Assembly (NCBI GenBank): GCA_012033335.1
Contig: JAAURB010000015.1
Location: 1-64,000 of the forward strand
DNA: 64,000 bases
Reading direction: 5' to 3'
DNA from: Oscillatoriales cyanobacterium RM2_1_1
GTDB taxonomy: Bacteria > Cyanobacteriota > Cyanobacteriia > Cyanobacteriales > Microcoleaceae
This document shows positions 14,115 through 63,422 of this stretch, piece by piece (within the stretch, counting starts at the first letter, position 1; each line of letters opens with the position of its first letter). Made by a program: the position numbers and the translations under genes. Under the pieces are notes generated by a model. It was not told the origin of the DNA. It was given only the letters and a program-made list of their open reading frames with translations, and did not search any database.

Positions 14115-14215
14115 GATGTTTGAAAAGTTTGAAACGTTAAGTGAACTGGCCAAGGATTCTACGGTTGGCCAGTTCTTCCGGAAAAAATTGCCGAGTTTTA
14201 CAAATCTCCCCTTTA

Positions 14216-14279
14216 TGTAAAGCTGCTTGTAAAGTTTTTGTAAAGATGCTTGTAAAAGTTTTTACTAAAGTTTGTAAAG
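14216..14279. promoter_or_regulatory. Phased TGTAAAG direct-repeat array upstream of chlP
   Basis: TGTAAA(A)G occurs at 14216, 14228, 14239, 14251 and 14273, with a degenerate ACTAAAG at 14264. Steps of 11-13 bp place the copies on one face of the helix. On the minus strand the core reads CTTTACA, similar to the half-site (G/T)TTACA of the HLR1 motif bound by the response regulator RpaB, although HLR1 uses 10-bp steps. It lies between the divergent PEP-CTERM gene and chlP. Confidence 0.6.
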
Positions 14280-14434
14280 TTTTGATCAGTGAGTCTTCGG
14301 GGTTTTCCGGAGAAATGTATTGCAGTCTGTTAAGCACTATTGCAAACTATCACAAACCCGGAGATTGAAAACCGCTGACCGCGCTGTCCGTGTTACCATC
14401 ACTCCTGATAACAATCTGATAAAGGAGAAAACCT

Positions 14435-16117: not shown

Positions 16118-16483
16118 ATGGATTTAAGAGATTATCAATACCGGGCTACTCGTCAGGGATTAGCCTCGATTAAGTTTTTCAAATTTTGTGCCATTGGCTT
16201 AGAACAGGAAGTCCGAGAGATTAATGCCAAAACCAAGCGACTCGAAAGCCTGGAGGACGCTAACCTCAACAAACTGACTCAGCAGCTCGGGGATTGTCTG
16301 TGGTTTATTACGAACCTAGCCCACGCGACGGGTTTGAGCCTGGAGGACATTGTCGCTGAAAGCCTGGAACTCGAAGACGAGAGGAATACTGAACATTTTT
16401 CCCGTTTGGATGAACCCACCCCCGCTTACAAAAATAACAACGGTAAGCACAGAGCCCAGGCTGTTGAGGTTGAAAACCTGTAG
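16118..16483 (+). CDS. MazG-like nucleotide pyrophosphohydrolase
   Basis: Product of 121 aa. It has the all-alpha NTP-PPase layout: GLEQEVREINAK (ExxE-type metal motif) followed by LTQQLGDCLWFITNLAHATG, matching the second motif of MazG proteins (ExxD in classical members; here QLGD with the acidic residue D kept). Such enzymes hydrolyse (d)NTPs to monophosphates. The N-terminus MDLRDYQYRATRQGLASI also fits phage and bacterial MazG-like proteins. The C-terminal 25 residues are polar and probably disordered. No Shine-Dalgarno is seen. It precedes the parM-like gene by 92 bp, with a repeat array between them. Confidence 0.75.
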   Translation: MDLRDYQYRATRQGLASIKFFKFCAIGLEQEVREINAKTKRLESLEDANLNKLTQQLGDCLWFITNLAHATGLSLEDIVAESLELEDERNTEHFSRLDEPTPAYKNNNGKHRAQAVEVENL

Positions 16484-16509
16484 GGTTCTACTTTGAGATG
16501 GGCTTGAAG

Positions 16510-16545
16510 TTGAATCTGAAGTTGAATCTGAAGTTGAAATTGAAT
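16510..16545. repeat. 12-bp tandem repeat upstream of the parM-like gene
   Basis: TTGAATCTGAAG at 16510-16521 and 16522-16533, then TTGAAATTGAAT (16534-16545); TTGAAG at 16504-16509 is a partial copy. Location directly before a ParM-like gene matches the place of a parC centromere, but similar arrays occur elsewhere in this window. Confidence 0.8.
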
Positions 16546-16575
16546 TAAAAATCTCTATTCAGGAATTACAAATAT

Positions 16576-17601
16576 ATGACCAGAATATCCTTAGATATTG
16601 GATATCGGCATCCAAAAATGTATCAGCTTGGCCAACAGCCAGTGGCATTTGATTCAGTGTTTGCTGATCTGGTTTCAAAATCCAGACCAAAAGTCAATGT
16701 TCAAAGCGCCATTATTGAGTACAGAAGATGCAATCACATCATCAATCAAAATCTGGTGGGGAAAGCCTGGATTGCCGGAAGTTCAGCCCGGAACAAAAAC
16801 ATTTATAGAGCTACCATGAACTATGAAAAAAGTGAAGTGGCTTTGCGGTTAGGATTGTTGGCTTTTAAACCCAAAAATGGTCAGCCATTTATTGATATTG
16901 ACTGCCTGGTAACCAGTTTGCCAGAACTACGGGATCAGACAGCCGTTGAGAATATCAAAAGTGCCTTTCTGGGAGAACATCGATATATCCGCAACTCTGA
17001 AGAGATCAGACTGATGATTCGGGATGTGAAAATTTATCCCGAAGGTTTAGGCACATTCTGGTTAGCCAGTCACCAGGGATTAACTGTTCCTGATACCTTG
17101 ACTGGAATTTGTGATCTGGGGGGCAAGACTTGTAATCTGGTGTTGATTGATGAATCTGGAGAACCGATCGAGGATGCTTCATCCAGTTTCAAAGTTGGGG
17201 GAACTTACCATCTCGCCTCATTAATTGCAGCGGATCCTCGCCTAGTGAATGCCAACAAAGGCGATGCTCCCAAACTAGAAACGGTGATGAATGCCCTGCA
17301 ATCCGGAAGTCGATATTACGGGACAACCGGTGCTAGTTTTGCCGAATACTACGAAGATTATCTAGAACAGTGGTTTAGTGGAATTCTTAGCGAAGTTGAG
17401 ACCCGATGGCAGCGTTATTTTGACCGTTTGGGTCGAGTCATTTTGACCGGAGGTTCTGCTAATTTAATCAAGGATCTAATTGCAGATAACGATTACTTTG
17501 CAATTCCCTCCAATCCTCAATTTTGCAATGTTATGGGATTGTTGTATCCACCTCAAACCGAGCCCGAACAAAGCCAGCTCAAACTGGTTGAAACCGCCTA
17601 G
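16576..17601 (+). CDS. ParM/StbA-like actin-type ATPase
   Basis: Product of 341 aa. Actin-fold motifs: phosphate-1 SLDIGYRHPKM (D7), phosphate-2 GICDLGGKTCNLVLID (D180) and the adenosine motif RVILTGGSANLI (288-298). Overall layout and length fit plasmid-segregation ParM/StbA/Alp proteins, which polymerise with ATP and push DNA apart through the adaptor ParR bound at parC. Here the next gene (66 bp downstream) encodes a small basic protein with an RHH-like segment and the upstream gap holds 12-bp repeats, so a complete type II partition cassette is possible (inference). The surroundings are chromosomal housekeeping genes, so it may be a domesticated or integrated plasmid system, or a cytoskeletal protein with another role. 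Confidence 0.85.
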   Translation: MTRISLDIGYRHPKMYQLGQQPVAFDSVFADLVSKSRPKVNVQSAIIEYRRCNHIINQNLVGKAWIAGSSARNKNIYRATMNYEKSEVALRLGLLAFKPKNGQPFIDIDCLVTSLPELRDQTAVENIKSAFLGEHRYIRNSEEIRLMIRDVKIYPEGLGTFWLASHQGLTVPDTLTGICDLGGKTCNLVLIDESGEPIEDASSSFKVGGTYHLASLIAADPRLVNANKGDAPKLETVMNALQSGSRYYGTTGASFAEYYEDYLEQWFSGILSEVETRWQRYFDRLGRVILTGGSANLIKDLIADNDYFAIPSNPQFCNVMGLLYPPQTEPEQSQLKLVETA

Positions 17602-17666
17602 AATCTCTTTTGGACTGGATGTTTTGGGCGATCGCTGTTTTCAAGCAAGTTTCAGGAAGATAAGGG

Positions 17667-18017
17667 ATGGCAAATTCAACAGTATCAAAAGCAAATCTAA
17701 AAGCAAATCTAAAACCCGAGATTCGATTTCGCGTGTCTGAGGAGTTGTTGGCGACAATTCAGGAGATTCAAGCCCTGGGAGACTTTGATAGTATTGGGGC
17801 GGCGGCCCGATTCGTGATCAAGCTTCAGAGTAAAGCTGTTTTGGCCTATCTCAGTCAGGCTGAGTCTGGAAGCGCCAGCTTGGAACCTCCTAAAGTTAGC
17901 TCCTCAGCAAAACCTCTAGGTTTTCCCCCTCCCGATTCCCCGATCATCCCAGACCCACAAAAAATATCGGGAGGATTTGCCCAACAATTTGCCAGCTTGA
18001 AACAGAAGATCAATTAG
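17667..18017 (+). CDS. Small RHH-like protein, possible ParR-type adaptor
   Basis: Product of 116 aa. The core EIRFRVSEELLATIQEIQAL followed by GDFDSIGAAARFVIKL has the strand-helix-helix pattern of ribbon-helix-helix DNA binders. The N-terminus is basic and contains KANLKANL, encoded by a tandem 12-bp duplication (17690-17713). The last 45 residues are rich in Ser/Pro and look disordered, as in ParR, whose C-terminus contacts ParM. The family is not recognised; the ParR role rests on context. AGGAAG lies about 10 nt before the ATG. Confidence 0.65.
   Translation: MANSTVSKANLKANLKPEIRFRVSEELLATIQEIQALGDFDSIGAAARFVIKLQSKAVLAYLSQAESGSASLEPPKVSSSAKPLGFPPPDSPIIPDPQKISGGFAQQFASLKQKIN
17690..17713 (+). 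repeat. In-frame 12-bp tandem duplication in the RHH-like gene
   Basis: AGCAAATCTAAA occurs twice without interruption, giving KANL twice in the protein. Confidence 0.9.
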
Positions 18018-20668: not shown

Positions 20669-21296
20669 CTGTTGTCTGCTCTTAATCGTTATATCTGCTG
20701 ATTTTCATCTTTACTGTTCCTCAAATACTTCCCGCCCAGGCATTACTTTTTGGGTCATGGCCTGAAAAAACAACCCGGGATCGAACTTAGAGAGAAAGAT
20801 AAACCATTTGAACTTTTAGGGGAACCTGCATTTAAACGATTTAAACGGGTATTTAAGTGATTTGATTCTAGAGTAGAACCTGAACTTGAACTGATCAGCT
20901 TGAAACTGACCTGAGCTCTGCATCCCGTAGCCGATCAGGCAATCGCAAATCCTGAACTTCAAGTCCCATTCTACAAGGATTTGTACCCTTGAATGATCTC
21001 CAGTAAGAATCAGAAATAATCTCTCCCCCAAGCCCTAAAACTCAATACCCCTTAGGATTGACGGCAATCTGACTCCGTTATCCAGACTCATTAAACGGTA
21101 GAATAATTAACGGGTCATTGCTGGCGCTGATGCAATAAATCAGTTTCCCCTATAGTTTGGGAAGCCCATAGGTTGGGAAGATTCTGATTCACTCATCAAC
21201 TTGAAACCTGAGAATTGAAGCTTAATAATAAGTAATAAAGTAATAAAGTAAAAGCAGTGATCCTCCCCAACCTGTGACCCGTTCCCGGAATCAAGT
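20669..21296. other. 628-bp divergent gap between crtE and gun4
   Basis: No gene or RNA recognised. A small tandem AAGTAATA(A) repeat (about 21229-21250) lies some 50 bp before gun4. TTTAAACGATTTAAACG (about 20832-20848) is a small direct repeat. Both promoters must be here. Confidence 0.45.
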
Positions 21297-29542: not shown

Positions 29543-29581
29543 CGGATAGGATTGGCGGATGGGATTGGCGGATGGGATTGG
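29543..29581. repeat. 13-bp tandem repeat, three units, upstream of rsmI
   Basis: CGGATAGGATTGG, CGGATGGGATTGG, CGGATGGGATTGG in direct succession, 75 bp upstream of the rsmI start. Only one base differs between units. Confidence 0.92.
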
Positions 29582-29608
29582 AATGGGCACAAACGATCCA
29601 TGGTGCAA

Positions 29609-29650
29609 TAAATTTTGTAGTGAATTTTGTAATGAATTTTGTAATGAATT
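29609..29650. repeat. 12-bp tandem repeat ending at the rsmI start region
   Basis: TAAATTTTGTAG, TGAATTTTGTAA, TGAATTTTGTAA, then TGAATT, ending 5 bp before the ATG at 29656. It takes the place where the ribosome binding site should be. Confidence 0.92.
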
Positions 29651-29655
29651 GAACC

Positions 29656-30501
29656 ATGACTGAAGCCGGGAAACTTTACATTGTTGGGACTCCGATTGGC
29701 AATCTGGAAGACATGACCTTTCGGGCAGTGAAAGTTCTCCAGTTAGTGGACTTGATTGCTGCAGAAGACACCCGTCACACAGGCAAACTACTGCATCATT
29801 TTCAGATTCAAACTCCCCAGATTAGTTACTACACCCACAATCAACAGCGCCGGATTCCAGAACTTCTAGAACGATTGTACCAAGGTCATACCATTGCCCT
29901 GGTTACGGATGCTGGAATGCCGGGAATTTCTGATCCGGGTTATGAACTGGTTCAGGCCTGTGTATCGGCTAAAATTTTGGTGATTCCAATTCCCGGAGTC
30001 AGTGCGAGTCTAACGGCCTTGAGTGTTTCTGGCTTGAGTTCTGAGCGGTTTGCCTTTGAGGGTTTTCTGCCGATTAAAGGCAAAGACCGACAGCAACGCC
30101 TGGAAAATCTGCAAGGCCAGACCCAAACCACCATTCTCTACGAAGCGCCCCACCGCTTGATCCAGACTTTGGCGGATCTGGCGGTGGTACTGGGGGAAGA
30201 GCGATCCATCGTTATCGCCAGGGAACTGACCAAACTCCACGAAGAGGTCTGGCATGGAACAATTGCCGGGGCGATCGCTGAATATGCCCAGCGCCACCCC
30301 AAAGGGGAGTTTACCCTGGTGATTGCCGGGGCTGATCTGACCATCGAAGTTCTCTCGGAGGCAAAGGTTCGGACTGAATTGCAAGCCCTATTGCATCAAG
30401 GATTCTCTCGCTCTCAAGCCAGTCGCCAACTTGCACAGTTCACGACGCTGCCTCGACGACAAATCTATCAAATTGCCCTGACTTTACCGGAGGACGAATA
30501 G
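29656..30501 (+). CDS. rsmI: 16S rRNA (cytidine1402-2'-O)-methyltransferase RsmI
   Basis: Product of 281 aa. SAM-dependent tetrapyrrole-methylase fold with RsmI hallmarks: YIVGTPIGNLEDMTFRAV, AEDTRHTGKLLHHF, VTDAGMPGISDPGYELV and FAFEGFLPIKGKDRQQRL. It 2'-O-methylates C1402 in the decoding centre of 16S rRNA together with RsmH. No Shine-Dalgarno can be seen because the 12-bp AT-rich repeat runs to the start; translation may depend on an unstructured leader. Confidence 0.95.
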   Translation: MTEAGKLYIVGTPIGNLEDMTFRAVKVLQLVDLIAAEDTRHTGKLLHHFQIQTPQISYYTHNQQRRIPELLERLYQGHTIALVTDAGMPGISDPGYELVQACVSAKILVIPIPGVSASLTALSVSGLSSERFAFEGFLPIKGKDRQQRLENLQGQTQTTILYEAPHRLIQTLADLAVVLGEERSIVIARELTKLHEEVWHGTIAGAIAEYAQRHPKGEFTLVIAGADLTIEVLSEAKVRTELQALLHQGFSRSQASRQLAQFTTLPRRQIYQIALTLPEDE

Positions 30502-51819: not shown

Positions 51820-51858
51820 CTACTTCAAGATATCTACTTCAAGATATCTACTTCAAGA
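51820..51858. repeat. 14-bp tandem repeat overlapping the VWA gene stop
   Basis: CTACTTCAAGATAT at 51820 and 51834, then CTACTTCAAGA at 51848. On the minus strand each unit carries TTGAAGTAG, so the TAG stop of the VWA gene (51848-51850) is the first of three identical stops in frame-shifted repeats. Confidence 0.92.
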
Positions 51859-63053: not shown

Positions 63054-63422
63054 GATTGAGGTTTCGGAAAAAATGCGATCGCGGGAAGTTCCTGTCTTAA
63101 ACTCCTACCTCAAATTCTAGGGGAACCTATCCATCCCTAAAGCGATGGTAATCAGAGATGACTGATGAGATTCTTGGGGCTCAGGCTTCCAGCCTGTAAG
63201 GGCAAGATGCCCGCTCCACCCCTACGATTAAACCCAGTGGCCTTAATACCCTTGAAGTCTAGTTCTAGATGAATTTATCAAAATCTTTACCAAAACCCAG
63301 TTAATTCTCGATTAACGATAAAATCGAGATCAACTCTGAAGCTGTCAATTACAATGGCTCAGAACCATATCTAGGAAAACTGTCTAGGAAAAACTGTTTA
63401 GGAAAACTGTTTAGGAAAAATT
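63054..63422. other. 369-bp divergent gap before DUF2839, with AGGAAAA repeats
   Basis: Contains the hairpin GGGCA-AGA-TGCCC (63200-63212) within a segment GGCTTCCAGCC, and the 13-14-bp array at 63371-63422. No gene. Confidence 0.6.
63371..63422 (+). repeat. Four-unit 13-14-bp repeat running into the DUF2839 ribosome site
   Basis: CTAGGAAAACTGT, CTAGGAAAAACTGT, TTAGGAAAACTGT, TTAGGAAAAATT. Each unit contains AGGA; the last AGGA lies 8 nt from the ATG at 63423 and serves as Shine-Dalgarno, so the array multiplies ribosome-site copies. Confidence 0.92.

Follow-up and report, generated by a model that had tools for sequence, protein, structure and literature searches.

A plasmid-type ParM–ParR-like gene pair, probably a stranded plasmid remnant, among the housekeeping genes of a cyanobacterial chromosome

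Actin-like proteins of plasmid type, together with their partner genes, have already been described from bacterial chromosomes. According to PMC12645912, FcmB and FcmC are a plasmid-derived actin pair required for rod shape in Nostoc punctiforme, and PMC12270681 describes chromosomal ParMR pairs as cParMR, with filaments demonstrated for two of them and polymerisation reported for the chromosomal ParMs of Desulfitobacterium and Clostridium. FcmBC and CorM illustrate that a plasmid segregation machine can turn into a cell-shape cytoskeleton. CorMR in Anabaena is reportedly the subject of a preprint; our literature search for CorM and CorMR, partly ill-suited to catching the name, returned no paper. 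Chromosomal ParMR pairs being known, the pair described here is a further example of them and a modest find, and no title or abstract opening that we found names this cassette.

The window, that is, the whole stretch of DNA analysed, covers 64 kb out of the 66,945 bp of contig G000:C126, which belongs to a 5.18-Mb draft genome, cyanobacterial to judge from its genes. Three open reading frames (ORFs) follow chlP on the plus strand and encode proteins of 121 aa (16118–16483), 341 aa (16576–17601) and 116 aa (17667–18017), with a 12-bp direct repeat ahead of the second, all present as originally predicted. The contig carries chlP, psbB, crtE, zwf, proS and atpA, each scoring above its NCBIfam cut-off, and genes for GUN4, phosphoglucomutase and a fatty acid desaturase are found no more than 10 kb away. 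By this gene content the contig is chromosomal, confirming the housekeeping setting that had been proposed, and the pair is not plasmid-borne as type II partition systems are. ParM itself aside, no plasmid replication, mobilisation, integrase or phage protein was recognised among the 22 window proteins scanned with Pfam or NCBIfam, the rest of the window being read as an ORF list only, and PHROGs gave no match for seven proteins near the pair. Promoter and terminator scans stayed at chance level. An empty site could not be demonstrated by synteny, because the two flanking genes, chlP and one of 143 aa, are widely separated in G009, a genome in one contig. On the minus strand at 20859–20940 of the window, ARAGORN called a tRNA-Sec, which is probably false because Rfam found no tRNA there at E 0.1.

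The 341-aa protein (16576–17601, plus strand) matched the 'partition protein' family phrog_691 with 101.6 bits over residues 3–322, and two Pfam domains, MreB-like_C (42.6 bits) and ALP_N (36.4 bits), exceeded their cut-offs; the NCBIfam ParM model gave just 30.8 bits against a cut-off of 417. When searched alone in the PDB, the sequence found two ParM chains, 6izr (E 8.4e-6) and the pCBH ParM 6ixw (E 9.9e-6), and a profile combining it with eleven relatives (alignment A1) matched 3js6, pCBH ParM, CorM, AlfA and R1 ParM among solved proteins. Residues D7, G9, D180, G182, T185, G292 and G293, which we assign to the nucleotide-binding motifs, are invariant across the 12 sequences of this alignment. 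Judged from its sequence, the protein is an intact actin-like ATPase of the ParM family, as the original prediction had it, with a family match far above chance, and it is probably still able to form filaments.

This protein has its nearest relatives among the ParMs encoded on cyanobacterial plasmids and in further ParMR loci of cyanobacteria. The cyanobacterial ParMs in the 12-sequence alignment share 26–32% identity with it, and the highest value in the tree set is 32% over 314 columns. Among 59 near genomes no close homologue was found, the top hit beyond its own genome having 32% identity; in 386 sampled phylum genomes, a set that overlaps the 59, identity did not exceed 36% and extended over part of the protein, with 13 of the 386 (own genome included) giving a match at E ≤1e-12. 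A contig scan with this ParM, confined to close relatives, found no relative, and 59 plasmid records, some of them non-cyanobacterial, matched it at E ≤0.01, six covering at least 80% of it. In a tree of 51 rows, from which L035 (from a plasmid identical to that of L051) had been left out along with ten FcmB rows that were duplicates or nearly so, the window ParM forms a lone long branch (1.52) whose place is unsure. Sporadic acquisition fits this distribution, because no close homologue occurs in the near or the sampled phylum genomes.

Combined with the setting, this kinship suggests that 16576–18017 is a plasmid-derived type II ParM–ParR pair stranded on the chromosome as an intact remnant, an explanation that we consider somewhat likelier to be right than wrong. 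The integrated plasmid remnant envisaged beforehand is thereby supported, on the one hand by the plasmid ParM kin and on the other hand by the low third-position GC of both genes: among 59 window ORFs, counted from the lowest, parM ranks 4 and the 116-aa gene 7, the 121-aa gene ranking 43. This low value is not unique to the pair, two window ORFs being lower. Because no plasmid or phage gene was recognised among the scanned neighbours, kinship and composition are what argue for a plasmid origin. Phage origin was considered as well and rejected, because tblastn in phages gave weak and partial matches (9 records, best E 7e-3), a viral-contig scan, confined to close relatives, gave none and the seven near proteins lacked PHROG matches, though phrog_691 is itself phage-derived.

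Orthology of the window ParM with FcmB/CorM was ruled out by model score and tree. The FcmB model NF052678 gave 24.9 and 25.5 bits against a cut-off of 300, and in the 51-row tree the window ParM falls outside the clade made up of the 13 FcmB rows (100/100 support), although the program warned that long branches can be excluded wrongly. The true fcmB of the same genome is on another contig (G000:C3:32858–33931), with an FcmC-like gene behind it, the two spanning L073:4214–5965. FcmB exceeded its cut-off in 38 of 59 genomes, and in 35 of the 36 that belong to the own family. Since this true FcmB scores 498 bits against CorM, a protein of solved structure (PDB 9rmi), FcmB and CorM appear by sequence to be a single family that goes by two names.

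A different history, in line with the new cytoskeletal module also suggested beforehand, would be that the pair was recruited for a chromosomal job, such as cell shape or the positioning of the nucleoid or envelope, the ParR-like protein anchoring filaments to the membrane or to a chromosomal site. The genes are open, the setting is chromosomal and the ATPase motifs are kept, and precedents are offered by the rod-shape role of FcmBC (PMC12645912) and by the polymerising chromosomal ParMs (PMC12270681); however, no close homologue was found in sampled relatives, the genome already has fcmBC, and the 116-aa protein lacks, as judged by eye, the tryptophan-bearing N-terminus of most FcmC-like proteins, which the FcmC-like protein of L025 also lacks. 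We therefore regard recruitment as unlikely. Slightly less likely still is that a plasmid ParMR was here recruited as a chromosomal cytoskeleton for a second time and independently, which would set two plasmid-derived actins, this one and FcmBC/CorM, beside each other.

The repeat array ahead of parM (16504–16545, plus strand) occupies the position in which parC had been expected. It contains three in-register copies of a 12-bp direct repeat from 16505, which can also be read as a 6-bp unit, and TRF reported it at 16505–16538 with 2.8 copies and a score of 68. Tandem arrays of score ≥40 are frequent in the window (36 distinct ones, 23 between genes), being held by 20 of the 44 intergenic gaps of at least 60 bp, and arrays of score ≥68 are found in 6 of these 44 gaps and in 4 of the 22 gaps of 60–200 bp, the parM gap counted in each case. 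Among 37 relatives (the 38 related loci without L035), eight have an array of score ≥40 within 400 bp before parM, and only two, both Oscillatoria acuminata plasmids, have one that starts, like that of the window, no more than 75 bp from parM. An array ahead of parM is thus present as predicted, but it is no stronger than the window background; it is neither enriched over that background nor general in relatives, and the view of it as a proven parC was dropped. Indistinguishable from the window background, the array may be regarded as a candidate parC or operator. Short tandem arrays in the window have mostly 10–16 bp units, for instance at 14212–14283, 29543–29659, 51820–51858 and 63372–63419.

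ParR proteins can work on DNA sites in trans, and plasmid ParMs are common in related cyanobacteria. The chromosomal pair could accordingly serve, in trans, a resident plasmid carrying the parC site, or it could confer incompatibility on plasmids that enter the cell. Yet two adjoining units of the array (24 bases) have one mismatch-free occurrence in the whole genome, and with up to three mismatches they recur in their own array and, outside it, only on G000:C148, where the match falls within an ORF of 569 aa, and on G000:C169. We hold action in trans, in either form, to be very unlikely.

Directly behind parM lies the gene of the 116-aa protein (17667–18017, plus strand), for which no Pfam or NCBIfam family matched and tblastn found nothing in plasmids; PHROGs gave a weak match to the phage transcriptional repressor family phrog_4738 (E 0.19). 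Its kinship was assessed with profiles built from chosen partner proteins of related loci. With hhalign, the 116-aa protein matched a profile of 11 partners at P 2.2e-4 and a probability of 45%, the best of 26 other small window proteins reaching P 0.035 and none of 300 shuffles being as good. With HMMER, a profile of 24 partners placed it first among 258 window ORFs (7.7 bits, E 0.76); out of 2000 shuffles, a single one scored higher. The sequence match to ParR-like partners is above chance in both shuffle tests and modest in absolute terms. Against the PDB, the partners' profile had a ribbon-helix-helix repressor, CopG, as its sole match, a weak one (E 0.71).

The place of the gene points in the same direction. 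Following the original prediction, we looked for parM homologues that lack such a partner, and a small ORF, recognised by size and place only, stands directly behind parM in all 38 related non-FcmB loci, a set in which L035 and L051 represent one plasmid and two distant members come from plasmids of Pseudomonas and Rhodoferax; in the Rhodoferax plasmid (L096), the deposited record shows no gene at that place. In relatives, the distance between the stop codon of parM and the first possible start codon of the partner runs from −44 to +26 bp; the 65 bp of the window pair fall outside this range, which counts against the preferred reading. By profile and place, the 116-aa protein is supported as a ParR-like partner, as is the earlier prediction of a ParR-type gene behind parM. 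The opposite case, in which the protein would be no ParR and the ParM-like gene would have no partner, could draw on the missing family and plasmid matches, the hhalign probability of just 45% and a low-confidence structure model that matches nothing, but it runs against the controlled profile tests, a position and size shared with all 38 relatives, and the weak repressor matches to phrog_4738 and CopG, and it strikes us as even more improbable than action in trans.

The single-sequence model of the 116-aa protein (pLDDT 57, pTM 0.23) has helices at residues 8–13, 25–36, 43–66 and 104–114, and no structural match to it was found. A ribbon-helix-helix-like core was judged by eye at about residues 19–62; the linker is probably disordered, and the helix at 104–114 would form the C-terminus in this low-confidence model. 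Because the profile tests are positive but the structure model is poor, partner kinship is supported and the ribbon-helix-helix fold is something that we only infer. Another 12-bp repeat, perhaps made by slippage, occurs at window positions 17687–17714 in the first codons of this gene (SKANLKANLK), and most relatives do not have this N-terminal extension.

The gene of 121 aa (16118–16483, plus strand) had been proposed as a MazG-like member of the cassette. Its product resembles the MazG nucleotide pyrophosphohydrolases weakly: the PHROG MazG-like family gave 22.2 bits (E 1.3e-4), whereas Pfam MazG gave 17.2 bits, below the cut-off of 22. In the ExxD motif, presumably the MazG metal-binding motif, the glutamate is replaced by Gln in the window copy. 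Two paralogues in the same genome, at G000:C172:7713–8057 and G000:C177:25639–25926, are 70% and 55% identical and have Gln in one case and His in the other; in an alignment with eight outside proteins, the six that align at the motif all have Glu, the larger L059 and L060 being unaligned there. The MazG-like genes form a small dispersed family with a degenerate ExxD motif in this genome. A MazG-like match was found in 34 of 292 phylum genomes and, within the own family, in the own genome only. The structure model (mean pLDDT 72) consists of one long helix and one shorter, and no significant structural match was obtained, the weak ones (E ≥4) being largely ribbon-helix-helix chains and meaningless. 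To go by the altered motif, the protein is perhaps without catalysis. Because neither paralogue adjoins parM and the composition of the gene differs from that of parM and the partner gene, a cassette of MazG with ParMR was rejected and we judge the MazG-like gene to be an unrelated neighbour outside the pair. As to the joint conservation of all three genes, suggested beforehand as a check, a small ORF accompanies parM in 38 of 38 loci, and the other copies of the MazG-like gene lie away from parM.

If the stranded-remnant reading is correct, the following course could be envisaged. The pair would have moved from a cyanobacterial plasmid to the chromosome and stayed intact. The 116-aa protein would dimerise through its N-terminal ribbon-helix-helix, and the dimer would bind DNA near its own locus, perhaps repressing it, and the C-terminal helix, past a flexible linker, would cap the end of an ATP-driven ParM filament. 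DNA-bound ParR would in this way cap and steer the filaments, by which sister plasmid copies would have been pushed apart when the pair was plasmid-borne.

ParMR pairs among housekeeping genes were also found elsewhere, between murG and dnaK in G050, between accD and aroA in G111, and near recJ and scpB in G066. The loci L031, L032, L033, L034 and L042 form a ParMR clade in three families of the class, with 100/100 support jointly with an Allocoleopsis plasmid ParM, and in G066 and G111 at least they are situated among housekeeping genes, at differing places; this clade is perhaps a second chromosomal ParMR lineage beside FcmBC. An element, TATAGTAC...GTACTA, upstream of parM is common to L032, L033 and L042 and imperfectly to L034, and could possibly be a promoter with a palindromic operator. 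Two further ParMR loci, L080 and L081, are present on the chromosome-size contig G388:C1 (6.3 Mb), and behind each come a string of small genes and one large gene that no Pfam family matches; the strings are alike by eye and may be integrated plasmid segments. Were the window pair only a remnant, it would have little significance. Stranded pairs such as those of the window, G050, G066 and G111 nevertheless resemble the leftovers expected of early steps toward an FcmBC-type cytoskeleton, and they are therefore material for asking with what frequency, and to what end, such pairs are retained.

Compared with known systems, the window pair shares with type II ParCMR (R1, pSK41 and pCBH; Allocoleopsis pMIC7113.05 and Kovacikia minuta pA) the ParM family, the parM–parR order, a small tailed partner and the ATPase motifs, and differs in being chromosomal, in having parC as a candidate only, in its wider intergene gap and in the low identity, given above, to the aligned cyanobacterial ParMs. 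With FcmBC of filamentous cyanobacteria (PMC12645912) it has in common a plasmid-type actin with a partner gene on a cyanobacterial chromosome, whereas its ParM scores some 25 bits against the cut-off of 300, is not placed in the FcmB clade and occurs in a genome that also has a true fcmBC. The nearest counterpart is cParMR, for which PMC12270681 asks for an actin-fold gene and a ParR-like ORF on a chromosome, and the window has both. The cassettes listed in its section on putative systems come from other bacteria, and filaments, which are predicted for the window ParM, were seen there for two; alike are the chromosomal parM with its adjacent ParR-like ORF and the sporadic occurrence, some cParMRs likewise being unconserved in sister species.
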